Source: a virus. Taken from it: a stretch of 21,126 bases of DNA. Shown piece after piece: positions 1,320 through 18,685 of this stretch. The notes beneath the pieces were generated by a model, which worked only from the letters and a program-made list of their open reading frames with translations, was not told the DNA's origin and searched no databases. Made by a program: the position numbers and the translations under genes. Positions within the stretch are counted from its first letter, which is position 1; each line of letters starts with the position of its first letter. The stretch is taken from IMG/VR virus record IMGVR_UViG_3300037674_000102, positions 1-21,126 of that record; one strand, 5' to 3'.

Positions 1320-3710
1320 CAAGCAAGAGAATTAGCAAAATTAGTATCAAACGCAGGTGATTTGAGTTTTATAGATGATGTTACATTAAAATCAGATTCA
1401 GCAGTATTAAACTTTGGAGCTGATTCAGATGTATCACTTACTCATGTAGCTGACACAGCTTTACTATTAAACTCAACAAGACGATTACAATTCGGAGACT
1501 CAGGTACATACATCAATCAAAGTGCTGACGGAGTTCTCAATTTAACTTCTGATACAGAAGTAGAAATCAATGCTACAACAGTAGACATCAATGCTAATGT
1601 TGACATTTCAGGAAACTTAGTTTTAGGTGGTAATATTACCATTGGTGACGCAGATTCAGATGATATATCATTTGGTGGTGAATTAACTTCACACATTATA
1701 CCAAATGCAGATAACACATACGATTTAGGTTCTTCAACAAAAGAATGGAGAAATGCATACTTTGACGGAACAGTAACTTCTGATGCATTTGCAGGACCAT
1801 TAACAGGAGATGTTACGGGTAATGTATCAGGTACAGCAGCCACAGTAACAACGGCTGCACAGTCTAACATTACAAGCCTAGGAACTTTAACAACTTTAAC
1901 AGTTGATAATGTTATAGTCAACGGAACTACAATAGGTCATACATCAGATACAGATTTATTAACTCTTACAAGTGGTGTACTGACAGTAGCTGGGGAATTA
2001 GATGCTACAACTTTAGATATTTCAGGAGATGCAGATATAGACGGAACTTTAGAAACAGATAATTTAACAGTCGGTGGTGCACAAGGTTCTGACGGACAAG
2101 TACTAACTTCAACAGGAAGTGGAGTAGCTTGGGAAGATGCAGGTGGTGGTGCAGTTTCAGCTATTAATAATGCAACAGCAAATGAATTAGTAACAATCGG
2201 AAGTACAACTACTGAACTAGATGCAGAAACCAAATTAGTTTTTGATGGAGAATTTCTTGGTGTAGCTGTAACACCTGAAGCTAATTGGGCAAACGATGCT
2301 AATGGTATTCAATTTGCTGGTTTAGGAGGACTGTGGGGTAAATCAAATCAGGCAGCAAGTTCAGCAGTAAATTTAACCTATAATGTTTATGACCATTCAT
2401 CAACAGGTCAAGCATATATAGTTACAGACGAAGCAAGTATGTATCAGCAAGATGATGGTAACCATTTCTTTTACACTGCAGCTTCAGGTAGTGCTGATGC
2501 TGCTATAAGTTGGAGTACAGCTAAACTGGCTATTAAGCAGACTGGTGCTGTTGGTATAAATATTACGAGTCCAGATTACAAATTACAAGTAAACGGTACT
2601 GGTACTACTATGAATGATGGAACTGGTGCATGCATTATGGTAAATAGTCTAGACAACTCAACTTCAATGATAATGTTAGGTTGTGCAGCTGATCCAAATG
2701 CTGGAGGCATTGGATATAGCAGATCAGCCAGTAGAATGTGGTTGACTGCAGGTGGTGGTTCAGAAAATAATAGCTCAGCAGCTTTTTGTTTAAATGGTGC
2801 CGGACAGGTTGGTATAGGTAAAATTCCAGAGACTGAATGGGATAGTGCATGGAAAGTACTACAAGTAGGTGCTGGTGCTATGGCTGCTACAACAGATTAT
2901 AGTCAAATGTCTTGGTCTCAAAATGGTAAAGCTAGAGGAGCTTCTTCAAATAGTAGCTGGGAACGAATTGAAACTGGAGCTGCTACACAATATGTCCATG
3001 ATGCTGGAAGTCATTATTTTAAACGCGCAGCATCAGCTAATGCAGATGTAGCAATTTCTTGGCAAGAACAAGTTAATATTAAGTCTAATGGAATATTTGA
3101 AGTAATAGGTAAAGATGGTGGTGAAACACACCAATTCCAATTTCATAATAATGGTGCTGGAGATGGAACAAGTACAAACTGCTCTCTTTCAGTCCAAGGT
3201 GGAAACACTTTAATTCAACTAATGGCTTGGTCATCTCTTGGCTGCAGAATTGGAAGCAGAGGTGGTGGTTGGAGTGGAACTGCAACTGATGTTTACCATA
3301 CTGCAGCTGATGCTACATACTTGGTAGGAAAATCAAATGGAACTGCATATCTAGCTAATGGTTCTACCGCAGTAACATCAGATCAAAGATTAAAGAAAAA
3401 TATAACAAACATGGCTGACGGACAACTAGCAAAAATAAATGCTCTTACAGTAAGAAACTTTGAATGGAAAGATGCTAGAAAAACAGGAGCTCAAACAGGA
3501 TTAATAGCACAAGAAGTTGAAAGTGTAATATCTGATGCAATAGAGGAAACAGCCATTGCACCTGATGACAATGATACTTCTAGAGATTTTGACGGAGATG
3601 TAAAAATAGTAAAATATGGTGATGTTCAAATGAGATTATTAAAAGCAGTACAAGAACTTTCAGCTGATTTAGATGCAGCTAAAGCAAGAATAACAACATT
3701 GGAAGGATAA
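1311..3710 (+). CDS. Tail fibre protein with C-terminal S74 intramolecular chaperone
   Basis: A 799-residue fibre. The N-terminal 200 residues are rich in short beta repeats (SLTHVADTALLLN, LQFGDSGTYINQSADG, VDINANVDISGNL) of a type common in marine phage fibres. A unit of about 100 residues occurs twice (roughly residues 313-415 and 499-600; compare FYTAASGSADAAISW with FKRAASANADVAISW). The end is a peptidase S74 chaperone: SDQRLKKNI at residues 690-698 carries the predicted Ser690/Lys695 pair, followed by LTVRNFEWKD, GLIAQEVE and a C-terminal coiled coil (MRLLKAVQELSADLDAAKARI). By family knowledge this domain guides trimer folding and is cut off just before the Ser. ATG 1311 follows GGAAGG with good spacing. 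Probable host-recognition fibre. Confidence 0.9.
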   Translation: MTTQARELAKLVSNAGDLSFIDDVTLKSDSAVLNFGADSDVSLTHVADTALLLNSTRRLQFGDSGTYINQSADGVLNLTSDTEVEINATTVDINANVDISGNLVLGGNITIGDADSDDISFGGELTSHIIPNADNTYDLGSSTKEWRNAYFDGTVTSDAFAGPLTGDVTGNVSGTAATVTTAAQSNITSLGTLTTLTVDNVIVNGTTIGHTSDTDLLTLTSGVLTVAGELDATTLDISGDADIDGTLETDNLTVGGAQGSDGQVLTSTGSGVAWEDAGGGAVSAINNATANELVTIGSTTTELDAETKLVFDGEFLGVAVTPEANWANDANGIQFAGLGGLWGKSNQAASSAVNLTYNVYDHSSTGQAYIVTDEASMYQQDDGNHFFYTAASGSADAAISWSTAKLAIKQTGAVGINITSPDYKLQVNGTGTTMNDGTGACIMVNSLDNSTSMIMLGCAADPNAGGIGYSRSASRMWLTAGGGSENNSSAAFCLNGAGQVGIGKIPETEWDSAWKVLQVGAGAMAATTDYSQMSWSQNGKARGASSNSSWERIETGAATQYVHDAGSHYFKRAASANADVAISWQEQVNIKSNGIFEVIGKDGGETHQFQFHNNGAGDGTSTNCSLSVQGGNTLIQLMAWSSLGCRIGSRGGGWSGTATDVYHTAADATYLVGKSNGTAYLANGSTAVTSDQRLKKNITNMADGQLAKINALTVRNFEWKDARKTGAQTGLIAQEVESVISDAIEETAIAPDDNDTSRDFDGDVKIVKYGDVQMRLLKAVQELSADLDAAKARITTLEG

Positions 3711-3720: not shown

Positions 3721-4851
3721 AATGTACACTTTAGTCAACAAGTACAAACAGAACAAAATCTTGTAGAAGATTTAGTTGTTGAGTCCTTACGCATGTATGG
3801 ACATAATTGTTATTATCTACCCAGAAAAATAGTAAATGAAGATACAATACTTGGAGATGCCGCTAACTCTAGTTTTGAAGATGCATATGAAGTAGAAATG
3901 TATCTTGAAAATATTGAAGGTTTTGAAGGTGAAGGTGATCTGTATTCTAAATTCGGAGTAGAAATTAGAGATACTGCTACTTTTGTTATATCAAGAAGAA
4001 GTTGGGAACGATTTGTTTCATTAGATGTCAACCTTGCTACAGGATTGAGACCTAATGAAGGTGATCTTATCTATTTTCCATTATCAAAAAGTTTATTTGA
4101 GATAAAATTTGTAGAACACGAAAATCCATTTTATCAAATGAATAAATTATTTGTCTTTAAAATGACTTGTGATTTATTTGAATACTCTGGTGAGAAATTT
4201 GATACAGAAGTTCCGGCTCTTGATACTGATTTAGAATTGGCACAAGCTCAATCAATAGAATTTACATTGAATGATAATAGTGATATGAGAGCATTTGTAC
4301 AAGGTGAAACTATTTCACAACTTTTAACATCATCAATAATCGCTACAGGTGTTGTTTCATCATGGAGTGAAGGAACAAATAAATTAACAATATCTTCAAT
4401 TAAGACAACAGACACAGGTGATCCAGCTACTTATACAAGTTTTATGACAACTGATGTAACTGAAGGACATATAGAAATGGAGGCTACTTCGGAAGGAGAT
4501 AGAATAATTTTCCAAGGAACAGGACAAGAAGGATACCTTATTGATTTTGAATCAGGAACAGCTGGAATAGAATTCCCTTCAATGATAACAGATGGTACAA
4601 CAGGTACAGATAATATAGCTCAAGAAACAGATGCAACAGCATTCTTATTGGAGTCAGGGACAAGTTCAGATTCATCATCTTTTGATACACTTATTCTTGA
4701 AGATAGTTTGATATCAAGACGAAGTATTGTTTCAATAGCTGCTGAAGAAACTCTACCATCAGATCCGGGAGCATTTAATCTTGATTTAGAAACAGATGCA
4801 GATGGAATCATAGATTTTTCTGAAGGTAATCCATTTGGAGAGGCTACATAA
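3712..4851 (+). CDS. 14: Neck protein, T4 gp14 homologue
   Basis: The first 170-190 residues match T4 gp14 as I recall it: a variable start, then DLVVESLRMYGHNCYYLPR (T4: VAESIQMRGVECYYVPR), a segment with YLENIEGFEG, RPNEGDLIYFPLSKSLFEI and ENPFYQ, then FEYSGE. Gp14 sits with gp13 at the head-tail connector, sealing the filled head and providing the tail attachment site. At 379 residues it is about 120 longer than T4 gp14 (256). The extra part, about residues 190-330, is Ser/Thr/Gly-rich and probably beta-structured (FVQGETISQLLTSS, then SSWSEGTNKLTISS). The start follows GGAAGG, and the stop overlaps the gp15 start by one base (TAATG). No gp13 is present upstream within the window. Confidence 0.9.
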   Translation: MATNVHFSQQVQTEQNLVEDLVVESLRMYGHNCYYLPRKIVNEDTILGDAANSSFEDAYEVEMYLENIEGFEGEGDLYSKFGVEIRDTATFVISRRSWERFVSLDVNLATGLRPNEGDLIYFPLSKSLFEIKFVEHENPFYQMNKLFVFKMTCDLFEYSGEKFDTEVPALDTDLELAQAQSIEFTLNDNSDMRAFVQGETISQLLTSSIIATGVVSSWSEGTNKLTISSIKTTDTGDPATYTSFMTTDVTEGHIEMEATSEGDRIIFQGTGQEGYLIDFESGTAGIEFPSMITDGTTGTDNIAQETDATAFLLESGTSSDSSSFDTLILEDSLISRRSIVSIAAEETLPSDPGAFNLDLETDADGIIDFSEGNPFGEAT

Positions 4852-10321: not shown

Positions 10322-11857
10322 ATGGACTTATTTGGATACGAGATTAAACGGAAGAAGGGCGAAACGAAAGCACAAAGTTTCGTCCCACCTTCTAATGATG
10401 GATCAGTCATTGAGATTGGTACAGAACAGGGAATGGGTGGCTTTGCAGCTACCGGTGGAGTCATTGGTCAGTATGTTGACATGGAAGGCGGAATCAAGAA
10501 TGAAGCCGACCTAGTAGCAAGATACAGAACAATGGCACTAGTTCCAGAATGTGATAGTGCTATTGAAGATATCATAAACGAGTCTTTAGCAGCTAATGAT
10601 TTAGATTCTCCAGTATCTATCAACCTAGATAGAGTTGAAAAGATACCAGAGGGTACTAAAAAGAAAGTTCGTGAAGAATTTGAAGAAGTACTTACATTAT
10701 TAGGATTCCGGGATTTATCCCATGACATATACAGAAAATGGTATGTTGATGGAAGGCTTTATTATCATAAAATGGTTGATAAGAAAGCTCCGAAGAAAGG
10801 AATTCAAGGTCTACGCCCTATTGACCCACAGAAGATCAGAAAGATCAGAGAGGTCAAAAAAGAAAAAGACGAGAAAACAGGCGTTGAAATAGTTGAAGAT
10901 ATATTAGAATATTATATTTACAACGATGCAGGATTTGATAAGTCAGGTAATAATACTGGCCAGACTGTTAGAATCCATAATGATGCTGTAACTCATGTAA
11001 CTTCCGGGTTACTTGATTACAATAAAACAGTAGTAGTTGGTTATTTACACAAGGCTTTAAAACCTGTGAATCAACTAAGAATGTTAGAAGATGCACTTGT
11101 TATCTATAGGATATCAAGAGCACCTGAAAGAAGAATCTTCTACATTGATGTAGGTAACTTACCTAAAGCGAGAGCTGAACAGTATTTGAAAGAAGTTCAG
11201 ACTAATTATCGTAATAAGTTAGTGTATAACGCTGACACAGGTGAAGTTAAAGATGACAGAAGGCATATGAATATGCTGGAAGATTTTTGGTTACCTAGAC
11301 GAGAAGGTGGAAGAGGAACCCAGATTGAAACACTACCAGGTGGAACCAATCTAGGTGAAATTGAAGATATTTTATATTTTCAAAAGAAATTGTACAAGTC
11401 TCTTAATGTACCAATTTCTAGATTAGAGACAGAAACAGCGTTCGCTATTGGTAGAGCGACTGAGATTTCAAGAGATGAGGTCAAGTTTTCACGATTTGTT
11501 GATAGACTTAGACTAAAATTCTCTAGATTATTTGATGATATTTTAAGAACTCAACTGTTATTAAAGAATGTTATAACAGAAGATGATTGGAAACACATGA
11601 AAGAGTATGTTTCATACGATTTCCAAAAAGACAATCATTTTACAGAACTTAAAGAAGCGGAGATATTGAGAGAAAGAATCAATACTCTAGAACAAATGGA
11701 TCAATTTGTAGGCAAATATTATTCAGAAGAATGGATAAGAAAGAATGTTCTTAGACAATCTGAAACAGAAATCAAGTCTATTGACAAAGAGATTAAATCT
11801 CAAGGTGCGGTCGGACTTGGACCTGATGATGATATGCCAGATCCAGCAGAATGGTAA
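10322..11857 (+). CDS. 20: Portal protein, T4 gp20 homologue
   Basis: A 511-residue protein (T4 gp20 is 524). It carries SFVPPSNDGSVIEI near the start, then LVARYRTMALVPECDSAIEDIINE, GRLYYHKMVD, LRPIDPQKIRKIREV, RISRAPERRIFYIDVGNLPKARAEQYL, NKLVYNADTGEVKDDRRHMNMLEDFWLPRREGGRGTQIETLPGG and LNVPISRLE, all hallmarks of T4-type portals. Twelve copies form the unique vertex that initiates the prohead, docks the terminase and later joins the neck. The late octamer is only six bases from the ATG. The end is acidic (GPDDDMPDPAEW). Confidence 0.96.
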   Translation: MDLFGYEIKRKKGETKAQSFVPPSNDGSVIEIGTEQGMGGFAATGGVIGQYVDMEGGIKNEADLVARYRTMALVPECDSAIEDIINESLAANDLDSPVSINLDRVEKIPEGTKKKVREEFEEVLTLLGFRDLSHDIYRKWYVDGRLYYHKMVDKKAPKKGIQGLRPIDPQKIRKIREVKKEKDEKTGVEIVEDILEYYIYNDAGFDKSGNNTGQTVRIHNDAVTHVTSGLLDYNKTVVVGYLHKALKPVNQLRMLEDALVIYRISRAPERRIFYIDVGNLPKARAEQYLKEVQTNYRNKLVYNADTGEVKDDRRHMNMLEDFWLPRREGGRGTQIETLPGGTNLGEIEDILYFQKKLYKSLNVPISRLETETAFAIGRATEISRDEVKFSRFVDRLRLKFSRLFDDILRTQLLLKNVITEDDWKHMKEYVSYDFQKDNHFTELKEAEILRERINTLEQMDQFVGKYYSEEWIRKNVLRQSETEIKSIDKEIKSQGAVGLGPDDDMPDPAEW

Positions 11858-11869
11858 GAGGAATAAATT

Positions 11870-12049
11870 ATGGTAGATAAAAATAAAGCAAGAGAGTTTG
11901 TTGACCAAGTATCCGGTGGTGATAATATCGCTGCAGGTGAAACTTTTAAAGGTTTAATGAAAGACAAACAACTTGATGCAATTGATTTGAAAAGAGTTGA
12001 AACACAAATTGATTGGTTAAATAGCCAAGAAAAAAAATCAGAGGGATAA
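11870..12049 (+). CDS. Small prohead core protein, T4 gp67-like
   Basis: A 59-residue, probably all-helical, charged protein (MVDKNKAREFVDQVSGGDNI...) lying between portal and protease, where T4 has gene 67. The sequence GGDNIAAGETFKGLMKDKQLDAIDLKRVE resembles short prohead-core proteins of marine T4-like phages (a pattern of a G/N turn, a helix, then a D-K...A.dlkR-E helix). It has a good AGAGGAA ribosome-binding site (11857-11863) seven bases upstream, 12 nt after the gp20 stop, and is followed by one base and the next start. Inferred role: scaffold core component. Identification rests on position and pattern, and T4 gp67 itself is much more acidic. Confidence 0.7.
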   Translation: MVDKNKAREFVDQVSGGDNIAAGETFKGLMKDKQLDAIDLKRVETQIDWLNSQEKKSEG

Positions 12050-12050
12050 A

Positions 12051-12479
12051 ATGGACTACTCACGGAGTTGGACTCAACCTGGACAAGGATACGATTTAAA
12101 AGAAAGGGTTAATATGAACCTGAAACCCGACAATCCTAAAGATAAAGTAGGTGATGCGGTGAATCGAAGAACAGAGTATTCGCATATCTATGTATCTGGA
12201 CTTCCTACAGCCGATATGAAAAGTTTAGTAAAAGAATTTGGAAGCATTGTAGATACAAAATGGTTAAAGAAAGATGTTTGGGGTACTGTTGGTAAAAATA
12301 GAAATGATGTAGTTATAAAAGGTAGAGAAGTTCATATTACTAATGGAAAATTAGGACATCTTGGTGGTTCACAAGCTGATGTAGCAATGGTTCAAAAACA
12401 AATTGCGAGATGGATAGAATCCGGAATGGATAAAGGTCTATCTATTAAAATCGGTTCAGTATTACATTCACAGAGATAA
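12051..12479 (+). CDS. Unknown protein in head-assembly cluster; possible encapsidated internal protein A
   Basis: A 142-residue basic protein that I do not recognise. Residues 6-14 read SWTQPGQGY, a motif shared with the N-terminus of the next gene (SWTTPGQGY). It is followed by L16-K17-E18, which fits the (L/I)-x-E cleavage pattern of the T4 gp21 protease, so residues 1-18 could be a removable capsid-targeting peptide. The rest (about 124 residues) has alternating strands and helices, with DVVIKGREVHITNGKLG and DVAMVQKQIARWIE. A GAGGG (12041-12045) lies six bases before the ATG. Its place between gp67-like and gp21 suggests a core or internal head protein. The gene is real by spacing and ribosome-binding site; the function is inference. 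Confidence 0.75.
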   Translation: MDYSRSWTQPGQGYDLKERVNMNLKPDNPKDKVGDAVNRRTEYSHIYVSGLPTADMKSLVKEFGSIVDTKWLKKDVWGTVGKNRNDVVIKGREVHITNGKLGHLGGSQADVAMVQKQIARWIESGMDKGLSIKIGSVLHSQR

Positions 12480-12490
12480 ACAGAGATAAA
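12471..12490 (+). repeat. 10-bp tandem duplication at a gene junction
   Basis: CAGAGATAAA occurs twice head to tail. The first copy holds the stop codon of the upstream gene (12477-12479). The second supplies the purine-rich leader before the ATG at 12494, and holds a second in-phase-independent TAA. Confidence 0.85.
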
Positions 12491-12493
12491 GAT

Positions 12494-12877
12494 ATGAGTT
12501 GGACAACACCAGGACAAGGTTATTTAAAAATGTGGAACGAAGCAGGTGACTTACAAGAAGCTGTAACTATTGAATGGGCTCAAACTAATAATGATAATCC
12601 ACAAAGATTTGAAACAGAATATAAAGCTCAAAAAATCACTTTAGAATGGTTTAAGGGCAATTCTATGAAGAAAGGTGGTACAATGCATATTAAGGGTAAT
12701 GGAGCACCAGCAAAAGAAGTTGCGCAACTAGTAGCTAAACATTTCGCAGGTCAAAGAATTATTACACTTAATGGTAGAGTTTTTTCTACGAAAGTAGCAG
12801 GTTTCAATGACAGATCACCTGACGATTATACAACATATCGACCAGGTTGGAAAAAGAATTGGACATTCACAGCATGA
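12494..12877 (+). CDS. Unknown protein in head-assembly cluster; possible encapsidated internal protein B
   Basis: A 127-residue protein that I do not recognise. It starts MSWTTPGQGY, like residues 6-14 of the preceding protein, and has L20-Q21-E22 followed by Ala, a good fit to the gp21 cleavage pattern; the mature form would be about 105 residues. The body shows GGTMHIKGNGAPAKEVAQLVAKHFAGQRIITLNGRVF, which can be loosely aligned with the REVHITNGKL...VQKQIARWIE...LSIKIGSVL part of its neighbour, so the two may be old tandem duplicates. The stop overlaps the next ATG (ATGA). Probably a head-interior protein; the similarity is by eye only. Confidence 0.75.
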   Translation: MSWTTPGQGYLKMWNEAGDLQEAVTIEWAQTNNDNPQRFETEYKAQKITLEWFKGNSMKKGGTMHIKGNGAPAKEVAQLVAKHFAGQRIITLNGRVFSTKVAGFNDRSPDDYTTYRPGWKKNWTFTA

Positions 12878-13479
12878 AGTCATTTAAAGAACTAAGAACA
12901 CAGTTAGATGAAATTAATTTCAAAGTTGATGCTAAGAAATTAGAGCTTAAAAGAATTAAGATTAAAAATACAGAAGTATTTTATCATGCTGAAAAGAAAG
13001 GTTCTAAAAAAATTAGAGTTTGGGTTAAGCCTAAATCGTCTAAAGAACCAGAAGAACTTGGTGTTTTTAAAGATATGAGAACTGCAGAAGCGTCTGCAAC
13101 ACAATTTGTTAAACTTATGGGTGAAGATATTGAAGAAGGTCTTAATGTTCGTAAAAAAATCATTGAACAGTCGAAAATAGATGATATGATTAAAGAGGTT
13201 AATTTCTTAGGTGAAAAAAGAGATTTTCCACAAGCACAAATAGATCAAATAGCACAATTAACTGATAGAAATCAACATAACGATTCAGTTAAGATGTTGG
13301 CTCAAATGCTAGGAAGAAAGCCAGAAGCTAAAATAATGGATCATATAGCAGCAATTCATAAGATTGAAGGGCATATGTACCCAAGTTTGATAACATATCG
13401 AACAGATGTAATGAAAAAACTATTGAAACTAGCAGACAGAATGTTTAACAATGCCAAAGAAATAAACAAGGCATTTTAA
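12874..13479 (+). CDS. Unknown helical protein before gp21 (T4 gp68 position); possible prohead core/internal protein
   Basis: I place the start at the ATG that overlaps the upstream stop (ATGA) rather than at a TTG 27 bases earlier; the product has 201 residues. It begins MKSFKELRTQLDE. This resembles T4 capsid-targeting peptides such as MKTYQEFIAE in the internal proteins, and L11-D12-E13 is a possible gp21 cut site. A basic beta-rich part follows (KRIKIKNTEVFYHAEKKG, IRVWVKPKS), then long helices to the end (DDMIKEV..., LLKLADRMFNNAKEINKAF). T4 has the core gene 68 at this position, but I cannot show homology. Function unknown; a role inside the prohead is inferred from location and N-terminus. 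Confidence 0.75.
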   Translation: MKSFKELRTQLDEINFKVDAKKLELKRIKIKNTEVFYHAEKKGSKKIRVWVKPKSSKEPEELGVFKDMRTAEASATQFVKLMGEDIEEGLNVRKKIIEQSKIDDMIKEVNFLGEKRDFPQAQIDQIAQLTDRNQHNDSVKMLAQMLGRKPEAKIMDHIAAIHKIEGHMYPSLITYRTDVMKKLLKLADRMFNNAKEINKAF

Positions 13480-13491
13480 AGGGAAAGACAA

Positions 13492-14154
13492 ATGAAACTA
13501 ATATCAGAACAATGGTGTGATAATATAGATTACCTAATAGAACAAGACCCTAAAACAGGTAAAGAATCTGTTTTTATTGAAGGTATTATGTTACAAACCG
13601 AAGTAAAAAACAAAAACGGTCGCATATATCCAAAAGAGATAATGCAAAAAGAAGTTAAAAGATATACTAAAGAGTATATTAACGAAAAAAGGGCCTATGG
13701 AGAGCTAGGGCATCCAGAAGGACCAACTATTAATTTAGAAAGAACATCTCATTTAATACAATCATTAAAAGAGGACGGCAATAATTTTGTCGGAAAAGCA
13801 AAGATTTTATCTACCCCTATGGGAGAAATAGTCAAAGGCCTTCTATCAGATGGCGCGAGACTAGGAGTATCTAGTAGAGGTATGGGTTCACTAAAAGCAT
13901 CCAATGAAAAAGGTGGTGTGCAGCTGGTGCAATCAGATTTTCAGTTAGCAACAGCGGCTGATATCGTAGCAGATCCTTCTGCTCCTGACGCGTTCGTAAA
14001 CGGCGTAATGGAAGGAGTTGAGTGGATTTGGGATAATGGAGTGATCAAAGCTCGAAAAATAGAAGAATGGAAACATGATATATTAAGAGCTAAGACACAT
14101 AAACTTCAAGAAGTCAAATTACAAGCGTTTTCTGACTTTCTTGAAAATTTATAA
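13492..14154 (+). CDS. 21: Prohead maturation protease, T4 gp21 homologue
   Basis: A 220-residue protein (T4 gp21 is 212). The serine-protease core shows KNGRIYPKEIM, then GELGHPEGPTINLERTSHLI with the predicted catalytic H74, LGVSSRGMGSL with the nucleophile S127 or S128, and DFQLATAADIVADPSAPDAFV with an acidic residue near 157-161 as a candidate third member. By family knowledge gp21 sits in the prohead core, activates itself, and cleaves core and shell proteins after (L/I)-x-E before degrading itself. The ATG follows AAAGGGAAAG. It stands directly before its main substrates gp22 and gp23, as in T4. Confidence 0.95.
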   Translation: MKLISEQWCDNIDYLIEQDPKTGKESVFIEGIMLQTEVKNKNGRIYPKEIMQKEVKRYTKEYINEKRAYGELGHPEGPTINLERTSHLIQSLKEDGNNFVGKAKILSTPMGEIVKGLLSDGARLGVSSRGMGSLKASNEKGGVQLVQSDFQLATAADIVADPSAPDAFVNGVMEGVEWIWDNGVIKARKIEEWKHDILRAKTHKLQEVKLQAFSDFLENL

Positions 14155-14193: not shown

Positions 14194-14214
14194 AATTTAA
14201 TGGAGAGTATTCTA

Positions 14215-15657
14215 ATGTCAAGCTTAGAAAACACTATAGAGGCAGTCATAACAGAAGGCAAATCTGGCGAGTCCAAGGAAATTCAACACGAAGTTCCTGG
14301 AAAAGGCGGATCTGCACCTGCGGCTAAATCTAAAACAGACCCTGACGCTGAAAAACATGCATCAGACGCTGCAGCAAAAGCTGGAGATGCCACTAAACCG
14401 GCACCGAAAACTAATGCAGCGACTAAAGCAGAAAAAGGCGAAGAGGCTGATGACGGTGTAACAAAAGTAGATAAGACATCTATACCTAATCAAGAAGAAG
14501 CAGAATCTGATTCTGAAGCTCCTCAATTAGATGAGATGTCAAAGTCTGAATTGTTAAAACAAGCCGTAGCGTCCATGAAAGAAATGGACCTTAAAGCACT
14601 TAAAGCAGCACACGCTGGTTTGAGTGAAGCAGACGAAGATGATGGCGACGAAGAAAAATCAGAGTCACTAAGTCGAAACGCACTTATTAGAGGTGTTGTA
14701 GAATCTCTTAAAGATAAATCTGTAAAAGAAGTCCAAGACTTTATTGGTTCACTATCAGAAGAAGAAGTATCAGAAGATGCTGATGATGAAGATAGAGATG
14801 AAGATAAAGGCGAAGGTAAAAATATTCAGAAGAAAACAACTCCTGTTGAGTCTAAAAAAGAAACAGACGAAATGGAAGATGAAGAAGAAGAAGTCAAGAA
14901 AGAAAACTATGAAGTCGATATGACTGATGACATAGAAGCTCTTGTCGCTGATGAAGATTTATCGGAAGATTTCAAATCTAAAGCTAAGACTATTTTTGAA
15001 GCAGCCGTTGCAAGCAAAGTTAAAGAGAAAGTTTCTGAGGTTGAAACCCAATTCGAAGAAACCACTAAAGAAGCGATTGAAGAAATCAAAGAAGATTTGA
15101 CAGAAAAAGTCGATTCTTATCTTAACTATGTAGCAGAAAGCTGGGTATCAGAAAATGAACTAGCGATCGAGCGTGGTTTAAAAACCGAGCTCACAGAAGA
15201 TTTCATAAACGGTTTGAAAAAACTGTTTGAGGAACATTATGTTGAAGTTCCAGAAGAAAAGTTTGATGTAGTTGAAGAACTAGCCAACAGACTTGACGAG
15301 AACGAAGATAAATTGAATAGTGAAGTTGCCGAAAACATCAAGCTATCTCAAGATATCGAGGAACTAAAGCGTGAAAGAATTATTAGCGAAGCGTCTAACG
15401 ACCTAGCTGATAGTGAACAAGAGAAGTTAAAAGAATTAACCGAAGATGTTGACTATGAAAATGAAGAAAGTTTCGTAGAGAAAGTTTCTACATTGAAAGA
15501 AGCATATTTTAAAGGTGAAAAACTTGAAGCTGTCTCTGATGAAAGTAATGTGGCTTCAGCCGATGCCAATTTCGGTTCTCAGGAAGAAACTCCTGTAGAT
15601 CCAGGCATGGCTAAATATACTGCCGCAATTAATAAATTTGCTAAATTAGATAATTAA
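14215..15657 (+). CDS. 22: Major prohead scaffold protein, T4 gp22 homologue (long form)
   Basis: The chosen ATG lies seven bases after GGAGAG (14202-14207); an in-frame ATG at 14200 overlaps that site and is less likely. The 480-residue product is far longer than T4 gp22 (269). Residues 1-14 (ending V-I-T-E, then Gly) fit a removable targeting peptide. Residues 15-110 are a low-complexity Ala/Lys/Asp/Glu stretch, and a very acidic middle has LSEAD and LSEEE sites. The C-terminal 200 residues are coiled-coil and match gp22: AIERGLKTELTEDFINGLKKLFEEHYVEVPEEKFDVVEEL. Gp22 forms the core around which gp23 assembles and is then cut to peptides by gp21. The size difference lies in the N-terminal half. 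Confidence 0.9.
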   Translation: MSSLENTIEAVITEGKSGESKEIQHEVPGKGGSAPAAKSKTDPDAEKHASDAAAKAGDATKPAPKTNAATKAEKGEEADDGVTKVDKTSIPNQEEAESDSEAPQLDEMSKSELLKQAVASMKEMDLKALKAAHAGLSEADEDDGDEEKSESLSRNALIRGVVESLKDKSVKEVQDFIGSLSEEEVSEDADDEDRDEDKGEGKNIQKKTTPVESKKETDEMEDEEEEVKKENYEVDMTDDIEALVADEDLSEDFKSKAKTIFEAAVASKVKEKVSEVETQFEETTKEAIEEIKEDLTEKVDSYLNYVAESWVSENELAIERGLKTELTEDFINGLKKLFEEHYVEVPEEKFDVVEELANRLDENEDKLNSEVAENIKLSQDIEELKRERIISEASNDLADSEQEKLKELTEDVDYENEESFVEKVSTLKEAYFKGEKLEAVSDESNVASADANFGSQEETPVDPGMAKYTAAINKFAKLDN

Positions 15658-15686: not shown

Positions 15687-17042
15687 ATGTTTATGTCAGA
15701 AAACCTTCAAGAAAAGTGGAAGCCAGTACTTGAGCATCCCGATCTTCCAAAGATCGAAGATAGCTACAAGAGAGCTGTTACTTCTGTAATTCTTGAAAAC
15801 CAAGAACGCGCAATTAGCGAAGAAAGAGGTGCTTTAAACGAAGCATTTGGTGACGGTCAAGGAACTGTTGCAGGTGATCCAGGTGGATTCTCTGCTACGG
15901 CTGCTAACTGGGATCCAATTCTTATCTCATTAGTTCGTAGAGCAATGCCAAACTTGGTAGCATATGATATTTGTGGTGTACAACCAATGACTGGACCTAC
16001 AGGTCTTATCTTCGCGATGAAGGCAAGATATGTAGATGACAGTTCAGCAGTCGCAAGAACAGAAGCTCTGTTCAACGAAGCTGATACTGACTTCTCTGGT
16101 TCTGGTACTCACGCAGGAACTGATCCATTTGCATCAGGTTCTGCAAACACCGCAATTCAAACAGGCTACACAACAGGTGCTGGTGATACTACTGCTACTG
16201 CAGAGAAAGATTCATCTATCGCTGAAATGTCGTTCACGATTGAAAAAGCTACAGTTACCGCGAAAAGCAGAGCGCTTAAAGCTGAGTATACTATAGAACT
16301 TGCGCAAGACCTTAAAGCGATTCATGGCCTTGATGCTGAAACTGAACTTGCTAACATCCTATCTGGTGAAATCCTAGCGGAAATCAACAGAGAAGTTGTA
16401 AGAACAGTTAATGATCAAGCTAAGATCGAAGGTGTTGCCTCAGAAAGTAACCTAACTGGTACTTCTGTAAACGGACAATTTAACCTAGATGTTGATTCAT
16501 CAGGTAGATGGTCAGTTGAAAAATTCAAAGGTCTTATGTACCACATTGAAAGAAATGCTAATGTTATAGCACGACAAACAAGAAGAGGTAAAGGTAACTT
16601 TATCCTATGTTCTAGTGATGTAGCGTCTGCACTTGCAATGGCTGGTGTACTAGACTATGCTCCAGCATTATCAACTAATTTATCAGTTGATGACACTGGA
16701 AACACTTTTGCTGGTGTCTTAAATGGCAGCATGAAAGTGTATATCGACCCATATTACGCGAGTGCGTCTACAAGACCTACTGGTGTAACAGCTGGTGAAG
16801 GCTATGTAACAGTTGGATACAGAGGATCAAATCCGTTTGATGCTGGTGTGTTCTATTGTCCATATGTCCCACTACAAATGGTGAGAGCAGTTGGTGAAAA
16901 CACTTTCCAACCGAAAGTGGCTTTCAAAACTAGATACGGAATGGTAAGTAATCCATATGTTGGCTCAACGCCTGCTAATGGTTTAGCTGCGACAAGCACT
17001 AACTCTTACTACAGAAGTTTCGAAGTTTTAAACTTACTGTAA
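15687..17042 (+). CDS. 23: Major capsid protein, T4 gp23 homologue
   Basis: A 451-residue precursor (T4 gp23 is 521). It opens with LQEKWKPVLE (T4 LLNKWKPLLE), has ILENQE near residue 35, and a probable gp21 site L50-N51-E52 followed by Ala, matching the T4 cut at LTE-A; the mature protein would have about 399 residues. Next come SLVRRAMPNLVAYDICGVQPMTGPTG, AKSRALKAEYTIELAQDLKAIHGLDAETEL, EINREVVRTV, IARQTRRGKGNFILCSSDV and FQPKVAFKTRYGMVSNPY, all typical HK97-fold gp23 signatures. The shortening is mainly in the insertion region. GGGGAA is eight bases before the ATG. Codons ending in C (aac, atc, ttc) are visibly more frequent than in neighbours, consistent with very high expression. A strong terminator follows. 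Confidence 0.97.
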   Translation: MFMSENLQEKWKPVLEHPDLPKIEDSYKRAVTSVILENQERAISEERGALNEAFGDGQGTVAGDPGGFSATAANWDPILISLVRRAMPNLVAYDICGVQPMTGPTGLIFAMKARYVDDSSAVARTEALFNEADTDFSGSGTHAGTDPFASGSANTAIQTGYTTGAGDTTATAEKDSSIAEMSFTIEKATVTAKSRALKAEYTIELAQDLKAIHGLDAETELANILSGEILAEINREVVRTVNDQAKIEGVASESNLTGTSVNGQFNLDVDSSGRWSVEKFKGLMYHIERNANVIARQTRRGKGNFILCSSDVASALAMAGVLDYAPALSTNLSVDDTGNTFAGVLNGSMKVYIDPYYASASTRPTGVTAGEGYVTVGYRGSNPFDAGVFYCPYVPLQMVRAVGENTFQPKVAFKTRYGMVSNPYVGSTPANGLAATSTNSYYRSFEVLNLL

Positions 17043-17422: not shown

Positions 17423-17821
17423 ATGGCATACAGTAAAGAAGTAGTAGAGAGATTTGAAAGTGTTCTCAAAAATCCAGAAAAACATTCAGTTGGAAGATTT
17501 GATCCTAATGACCCTAATGTGGTATCAGGGATGGTAGGAGCTCCATCATGTGGAGATGTGATGAAATTGGATATGAAATTGGACATAGACGGATTGATAG
17601 AAGATGTTAAATTTAAAACTTATGGTTGTGGGTCTGCTATTGCAAGTTCTAGTTTGTTTGTTGATATGCTTAAAGGCAGAACAATAGAAGAAGCAAGACA
17701 GATTAAAGACAAAGATATTGCAGAAATTTTAGATTTACCACCTATTAAATTACATTGTTCAGTTTTAGCAGAAGAAGCTATTACTAAAGCAATTGAAGAT
17801 TGGGATATAAAACATAAATAG
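17423..17821 (+). CDS. iscU: IscU-type Fe-S cluster assembly scaffold protein
   Basis: A complete 132-residue IscU, close to bacterial IscU in length and sequence. It has MAYSKEVVERF, SGMVGAPSCGDVMKL, FKTYGCGSAIASSSL, IKDKDIAEILDLPPIKLHCSVLAEEAI. The three cluster-ligand cysteines are present (C43, C69, C112), as are D45 (E. coli Asp39 equivalent), H111, and the LPPIK motif (105-109) that in E. coli, as LPPVK, is bound by HscA. About six residues are inserted near positions 13-20 compared with E. coli IscU. IscU receives sulfur from IscS and iron, builds a [2Fe-2S] cluster and hands it on. No iscS, hscA or fdx is nearby, so it would have to work with host partners. It lies in its own unit between a terminator and late promoters, in an AT-rich context like its neighbours. 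A phage auxiliary gene; the identification is secure from motifs. Confidence 0.95.
   Translation: MAYSKEVVERFESVLKNPEKHSVGRFDPNDPNVVSGMVGAPSCGDVMKLDMKLDIDGLIEDVKFKTYGCGSAIASSSLFVDMLKGRTIEEARQIKDKDIAEILDLPPIKLHCSVLAEEAITKAIEDWDIKHK
17813..17820 (+). promoter_or_regulatory. Late promoter octamer CATAAATA at the end of iscU
   Basis: CATAAATAGTAAT overlaps the iscU stop codon and stands five bases before the ATG of the small gene at 17826, the same octamer-to-ATG distance as at iscU. Confidence 0.5.
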
Positions 17822-18005: not shown

Positions 18006-18138
18006 TGAAGAACTGTATGTAGAATCTGAAACACAAGATCATGAATATCAAGGTTGGTTTTATCATTACCCAACTAAAAAATTTTATAGATGGAATGACC
18101 TACCATGGGGAATAGAGGAAGAAGATGGCGACAGCTAA
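17998..18138 (+). CDS. Very small aromatic-rich protein, unknown
   Basis: A 46-residue ORF starting MNNEELYVESETQDHEYQ, followed by an aromatic stretch GWFYHYPTKKFYRWNDLPWG and an acidic end. It overlaps the preceding small gene by 8 nt and the following tube-like gene by 14 nt, so it fills the interval exactly. No clear ribosome-binding site is visible, so translation would depend on coupling. Family unknown. An antisense frame of 74 codons across this region is less likely because it has no promoter or ribosome-binding site. Confidence 0.5.
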   Translation: MNNEELYVESETQDHEYQGWFYHYPTKKFYRWNDLPWGIEEEDGDS

Positions 18139-18685
18139 TTGGCAATCAGACCAACCAACAAATTTAAACTATTTGTCTCCAATTAATTTTGATTTAATAA
18201 TATCGAAATTACCAAAGACAAGATATTTTTGTACAGGTGTAAATATACCTTCAATTAATTTTAGTGAAGCTTTAATGGATACTAAGTTAGCAATTCAATC
18301 AACATTACCTGGTGATAAAATAACTTTTGACCCATTAACAGTAAAATTTGTTGTAGATGAAGATATGAAAAATTATCAAGAAATCTTTGATTGGATTATG
18401 GCATTAGGACCAGGTATTGACCCAGCAGATTTTAGAGCACTAACAGGCCAAACTGGAACAGGAATTTCATTAGCAACGAAAGGTGATAATCTAGAAATGT
18501 ATTCAGATGCAACTCTTATGATTAATACATCATCTAATAATGCTAATATAGAAATCAATTTTGTTGATTGTTTTCCGACAAGTTTGGGTGCTATTGATTT
18601 TACAACTGATACATCGGATGTAGCATATGCACAATGTGATTTAACTTTGAGATACACTTATTACACAATAAAACCCAGTAGTTAA
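18125..18685 (+). CDS. Second tail-tube-fold protein (gp19-like paralogue)
   Basis: A 186-residue protein. The segment FDLIISKLPKTRYFCTGVNIPSI and the C-terminal FPTSLGAIDFTTDTSDVAYAQCDLTLRYTYY align with FKVFIPRLPGGQEF...TSSLPG and WPTALGAITLDSGGADAVETFDITWSYSHF of the gp19 in this window, which supports a common tube fold. It carries an extra loop around residues 100-125. Candidates are a tube-terminating, tube-initiating or baseplate-hub ring subunit. In cyanophages the position between gp23 and uvsY is, as I recall, where gp3 (tail terminator) is annotated, so it may fill that role; this is inference. It has an AGAGGA ribosome-binding site (18114-18119). Confidence 0.75.
   Translation: MATANWQSDQPTNLNYLSPINFDLIISKLPKTRYFCTGVNIPSINFSEALMDTKLAIQSTLPGDKITFDPLTVKFVVDEDMKNYQEIFDWIMALGPGIDPADFRALTGQTGTGISLATKGDNLEMYSDATLMINTSSNNANIEINFVDCFPTSLGAIDFTTDTSDVAYAQCDLTLRYTYYTIKPSS

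Follow-up and report, generated by a model that had tools for sequence, protein, structure and literature searches.

The window, by which we mean the whole stretch of 21,126 bases analysed here, is a fragment of a marine T4-like phage. Its head genes, together with the features of the two proteins under study (A and B), are arranged as follows:

10322..11857, plus strand: gp20 portal protein (phrog_213, E = 3e-203)
11870..12049, plus strand: 59-residue open reading frame at the position of T4 gene 67, directly 3' of gp20, kept across the phage group, without the SWT leader
12051..12479, plus strand: protein A
12051..12104, plus strand: leader of A (putative propeptide), residues 1-18, MDYSRSWTQPGQGYDLKE
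12066-12092, plus strand: motif of A, SWTQPGQGY, with the predicted cut after E18
12105..12479, plus strand: mature body of A, 124 residues, pI about 9.9
12494..12877, plus strand: protein B
12494..12559, plus strand: leader of B (putative propeptide), residues 1-22, MSWTTPGQGYLKMWNEAGDLQE
12497-12523, plus strand: motif of B, SWTTPGQGY, with the predicted cut after E22, before A23
12560..12877, plus strand: mature body of B, 105 residues, pI about 9.9, low-confidence model
12874..13479, plus strand: gene C, between B and gp21, its ATG overlapping the stop of B
13492..14154, plus strand: gp21 prohead protease (phrog_207, E = 3e-76; Pfam Peptidase_S77, E = 2e-36), the presumed processing enzyme of the leaders
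14200..15657, plus strand: gp22 scaffold (phrog_237, E = 1e-81; Pfam T4_CASP), presumably the core on which the leaders dock
15687..17042, plus strand: gp23 major capsid protein (phrog_138, E = 6e-152)

Both proteins open with a short leader around the motif SWTxPGQGY, laid out as MDYSR-SWTQPGQGY-D-LKE18 in A and, with the start MSWTTPGQGYLKMWNEAGDLQEA, as M-SWTTPGQGY-LKMWNEAGD-LQE22-A in B. An earlier note on this DNA had read SWTQPGQGY followed by LKE (E18) in A and SWTTPGQGY followed by LQE-A (E22) in B; when the open reading frames were checked, its coordinates and residue numbers proved right. Its statement that the motif lies two genes before gp21 applies to B and not to A, which is three genes away because gene C lies between B and gp21. 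The motif occurs twice in the window, in A and B only, where 100 shuffles gave an expectation of none. At the DNA level the two copies differ by four synonymous third-position changes and the one variable (x) codon; it is thus the peptide that is kept and not the DNA. The predicted mature proteins begin with RVNMNLKPDNPK (A, from residue 19) and AVTIEWAQTNNDNPQR (B, from residue 23), and the uncut full N-terminus reads SWTQPGQGYDLK...

In the predicted structure of A (mean pLDDT 70), residues 1-18 all have a pLDDT below 50 and the unstructured part ends exactly at E18. A beta-alpha-beta-beta-alpha-beta (ferredoxin-like) core follows from residue 43. Matches in the fold search were merely of a general ferredoxin-like or RRM-like type, spread over many ferredoxin-like folds with a top VIA Z of 6.4, and Foldseek gave no match at E ≤ 0.001; the predicted fold is of a common type and tells no function. 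The body of A has no match in Pfam, PHROG or INPHARED either. The fold matches of B (Z ≤ 4.2) were not used because its model is too poor (mean pLDDT 50).

Just 3' of gp23 the window encodes an IscU/NifU-like iron-sulfur scaffold protein (17423-17821; Pfam NifU_N, E = 5e-37), and contig L104 has a match near its own gp23 too. Also after gp23 lies a second tail-tube-like gene (18125-18685), whose counterpart is a gp19 match in L058 and L076 and an annotated tail tube in Mosig.

Distribution and genomic loci of the leader

The earlier note had proposed searching this genome and its relatives for an N-terminal SWTxPGQGY. Using a DNA pattern that did not require a start codon, we obtained 29 exact matches on 21 contigs among 2.9 million viral contigs; the motif is strictly N-terminal there, all 29 copies lying directly behind a start codon, and all belong to one group of marine T4-like phages. 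A control search of 257 Gb of bacterial and archaeal DNA gave 13 exact matches, none at a protein start and none in a convincing gene. For the variant ending in F, 43 matches were found, 35 of them at protein starts in the same phage group (one 9 residues behind the Met) and eight scattered elsewhere as chance matches. The spacing from start to motif ranges from 1 to 10 residues. Codon positions 1 and 2 of W, T, P, G and G are invariant while the third bases vary (for example CCA/CCT/CCC/CCG, GGA/GGT/GGG), which indicates that selection acts on the peptide.

Every contig that carries the leader is metagenomic and belongs to this one phage group. The leader was not found in cultured phages by a short-peptide search, which has little power; a tblastn search of INPHARED was negative for A and B as well as for the leader peptide and the EKMGLP body described below, and in the cultured relatives Mosig, P-SSM4 and Melnitz-3 the gp20-gp21 interval contains other proteins, without the leader.

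Every copy of the leader lies either in the gp20-gp21 interval or in a second locus. Among gp21 types at least 80% identical to that of the window and with a complete gp20-gp21 interval, 30 of 36 have the leader and 15 have two; none of the 24 gp21 types below 80% identity with a complete interval has one. The former figure is biased upward, as some loci were fetched by the motif, whereas the latter is not. In several phages two or three motif genes stand in tandem. In the second locus, leader copies, among them homologues of B (L037, L050 and L191), lie upstream of a 151-residue protein and a 197-residue phrog_11617 protein, a few genes from proteins of 131-137 residues with MKSFKSYIKE, MKSFKTYINE or MKSFRTFVKE, which are capsid-targeting sequences (CTS) of the T4 type. 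The second cargo locus of L050 also encodes a DUF6267 protein (2132-3331), found in 466 phage records, mostly of cyanophages, whose first residues, MEFLTEA, resemble a targeting propeptide of very small size.

Bodies, cleavage-type sites and leader exchange

The search of 131 loci yielded 48 leader proteins, reduced by one false match to 47 distinct sequences, with predicted leaders of 13-23 residues. Two matches were rejected as leaders: MCWTLPGEG of L046, a pattern match that does not stand in frame and comes from a GC-rich contig, and p6_L026, which is a lipoprotein. After removal of the first 30 residues, the 47 proteins fall by single linkage into 13 body families that show no detectable resemblance to each other; in one of these, the A bodies are united with a smaller body type solely by two 20-residue matches (E about 7e-4). 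In most families the mature bodies are basic, with a pI of 9-10; some members of two families are close to neutral or acidic. No recognisable domain was found in A, B, C or the others in comparisons with Pfam, PHROGs and PADLOC; weak PADLOC matches to Csn2, PbeC and PD-Lambda-5_A (E = 0.001-0.01) were set aside as probable chance matches.

The bodies of A and B belong to different families. They had been thought distantly related, as after tandem duplication, and a profile comparison of the mature parts had been suggested; BLAST gives E = 0.13 over 16 residues, and the profile comparison returned an hhalign probability of 0.3%. Since no relationship between the bodies can be detected, their tandem duplication is not supported; a more likely event is that the leader was copied from one neighbour to another.

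T4 gp21 cuts after L/I-x-E (PMC9026906). In 45 of the 47 leaders, the 12 residues after PG contain a site of the form [LIVFM]xE, compared with 6% of same-length windows inside the bodies; for the strict form [LI]xE the figures are 37 of 47 and 4%, and the family-weighted frequency of the site within 14 residues is 96%. A few leaders have F, V or M instead of L or I at P3. In gp23 of the same group, which also has M or V there, the T4 propeptide boundary is conserved as [LIMV]xE|[AG] (the predicted cut in the window is ALNE|AFGDG), and this explains the tolerance at the first site position. Some leaders contain two candidate sites. In close homologues of B the leader changes but the LxE|A[VIL] step after it does not, and in relatives of A the body begins after LKE, LEE, IKE, FKE or ITE.

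The natural exchange of leaders, as read from the aligned sequences, is the most telling evidence. A body of 68-70 residues (EKMGLPTMAIKPIMKDIEKLMKKHDAYVS..., the EKMGLP body) occurs with either a T4-type or an SWT leader. It starts as MKTFNQYITE|EKMGLP in L023 and L171, and as MSWTRPGQGYTLQDSISE|EKMGLP, MSWTTPGDGFFKETSISE|EKMGIP or MKSWTTPAQGYLIE|EKMGLP, of the form MSWTxPGQGY…ISE|E, in L027, L032, L035, L047 and L079. T4 IPII and IPIII start with MKTYQEFIAE|A (read from AF158101), and the residues that matter in the T4 CTS are the aromatics at 4 and 7, I at 8 and E at 10 (PMC9026906); MKTFNQYITE matches this IPIII pattern at all four positions. In L023 and L171, SWT and T4-type leaders are found on neighbouring genes. 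A third leader is present in L190, a more distant contig, where the B body starts with MGNYWQELKE, and NYWQELKE follows a GTG start on the small LMD body; the shared peptide is written in different codons on two unrelated bodies that elsewhere carry SWT. These genes lie at 2944-3282 and 4175-4444, the second having GGAAG upstream of its GTG.

The strict T4-CTS pattern M..[aromatic]..[aromatic][I/L].E (residues 4, 7, 8 and 10), applied to all start positions of all loci, matched 13 N-termini. They are those of T4 IPII and IPIII, of the exchanged EKMGLP body and of second-locus proteins from this group, from L190 and from the OM43 phage Melnitz-3, among them a 429-residue protein with the nucleotidyltransferase signature FGRFNPPTVGH. 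No SWT protein is among the 13, so that the SWT leader lies outside the T4 sequence pattern, yet takes its place.

Nucleotidyltransferase-like proteins (FGRFNPPT.GH) with a T4-type CTS (MKKFSKFLTE|G) or a similar start are encoded in L201 (389-1675, minus strand) and L194 (13619-15571), and are candidates for enzymes packaged in the head. The N-terminus of gene C in the window, MKSFKELRTQLDE, is likewise T4 CTS-like and ends in LDE. Its homologues (L023, L027, L030, L066 and L079) keep the N-terminal ~110 residues, starting with MK[ST]FxxLRxxLDE, and differ in C-terminal modules that are exchangeable among relatives. One such module also occurs in a 382-residue SWT protein of L036, and another is the body of a separate SWT protein.

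Interpretation and relation to known systems

We interpret SWTxPGQG(Y/F) as the core of an N-terminal leader which a protease can remove and which brings small, mostly basic cargo into the prohead, and put the probability of this reading at about 0.86. Position, modularity, the cleavage-type site, leader exchange and genomic context could be demonstrated by sequence comparison; packaging, docking and cleavage are inferred. Weighing against it are the leaders with two candidate sites, the few with F, V or M at P3, the near neutral or acidic members of two body families, and the restriction of all carriers to metagenomic contigs from a single group. The earlier suggestion of a new capsid-targeting signal with a gp21-type site is supported, resting on the strict N-terminal position, the at least 13 unrelated bodies and the enrichment of the site, and further on the lack of predicted structure in the leader of A up to E18 and the exchange with T4-type and other leaders.

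The motif might instead be an uncleaved N-terminal assembly tag that fixes proteins to a part of the head or neck such as the portal or the vertex, with (L/I)xE being incidental. The leader genes do adjoin gp20 and lie near head genes, but an incidental site is hard to reconcile with its presence in 45 of 47 leaders against 6% of control windows, its E is the very point where bodies with different leaders start to align, and the T4-type leader that SWT replaces is known to be cleaved (PMC9026906), so that we regard such a tag as improbable. Nor is a selected signal needed if the shared N-terminus merely reflects common ancestry through tandem duplication and later divergence, as the adjacency of A and B and the tandem motif genes of several phages could suggest; the leader may well spread by copying of a neighbour's 5' end. 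Common ancestry is nevertheless very unlikely as the explanation, given bodies without any detectable relationship, at least 13 body families sharing the leader, the same body occurring with other leaders, and a peptide that stays fixed despite synonymous divergence, which points to selection on the leader itself. Hardly credible at all is a DNA or RNA feature of gene starts, either a recombination site or a translational control element, that encodes the peptide by chance: a place at the 5' end of genes, where the region is variable and recombines, would suit it, but third codon positions are free where the first and second are invariant (W, T, P, G and G), and the distance from start to motif varies between 1 and 10 residues.

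For the protease-removable leader, we propose that it would dock, unfolded, on a component of the prohead core during core assembly, be it the gp22 scaffold, the gp67-like protein or another, and that the shell would then close around the core. Cleavage by gp21 after hydrophobic-x-Glu at the end of the leader would free the mature body within the head; there it may stay with the DNA and could be ejected along with it. SWT and T4-type leaders would do the same job side by side in the same genomes. Docking on the core and removal by gp21 are inferred from T4 (PMC3012670; PMC9026906). T4 IPI and Alt make it plausible, by analogy, that the cargo is injected and acts on the host; this remains speculative and is not shown. 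A possible though tentative extension, to which we give somewhat less than even odds, is that the T4-type CTS and SWTxPGQG(Y/F) are parallel labels for different docking sites on the prohead core which set copy number, place or time of loading for each cargo, and that exchange of leaders and bodies between the two cargo loci yields a fast-changing set of injected proteins for interaction with the host.

The closest known counterpart is the CTS of the T4 internal proteins (IPI, IPII and IPIII), likewise a short N-terminal propeptide common to unrelated, mostly basic small proteins (T4 internal proteins are called basic in PMC9026906), which ends in a gp21-type (L/I)xE; in the phage group studied here, a leader of the T4 type exchanges with the SWT leader on the same body at the cut. 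In T4 the CTS is enough by itself to bring foreign proteins into the head (PMC9026906; PMC3012670). The T4 internal-protein propeptides measure 10-19 residues, the predicted SWT leaders 13-23. The T4 signal reads MKT[YF]xxF(I)xE, and its residues 4 and 7 matter for targeting, whereas the SWT leader has the core SWTxPGQG[YF] with Trp, Pro and Gly and a variable distance to the cut. We therefore conclude that the SWT leader is functionally like the T4 CTS and different in sequence, the function being inferred. The N-terminal packaging signal of P1 DarB is related in behaviour (PMC9024508) but belongs to another phage group, and Dar N-termini have neither a shared consensus nor a T4-type core. 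Propeptides of inner head proteins in SPN3US and phiKZ are removed by a gp21-related protease and have an inferred targeting role (PMC5694885); they are, however, mostly over 100 residues long, without a shared short motif of the SWT kind. T4 gp67 and gp68, which are core proteins, occupy the same interval between genes 20 and 21, but their N-termini lack the SWT leader.

The motif was not found in any paper searched, and only a T4 review in that literature mentions capsid targeting together with cyanophages. A capsid-targeting propeptide as such is already known from T4; what appears to be new is the SWT sequence, together with its occurrence on 13 body families and the way it trades places with T4-type leaders. 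Of the ways in which proteins are loaded into phage heads, the T4 CTS has been studied best, and it is put to use in protein delivery; the literature that could be searched describes no further leader in T4-like phages with a sequence unlike it. The SWT leader is a possible second targeting tag of this kind. With it, at least 13 unknown families of proteins can be flagged as likely cargo of the head. It also offers a sequence-based way to find injected proteins in marine T4-like phages and, through defined semi-tryptic termini, makes the detection of leader proteins in virions directly testable. Its natural replacement at the protease site shows how cargo sets evolve.
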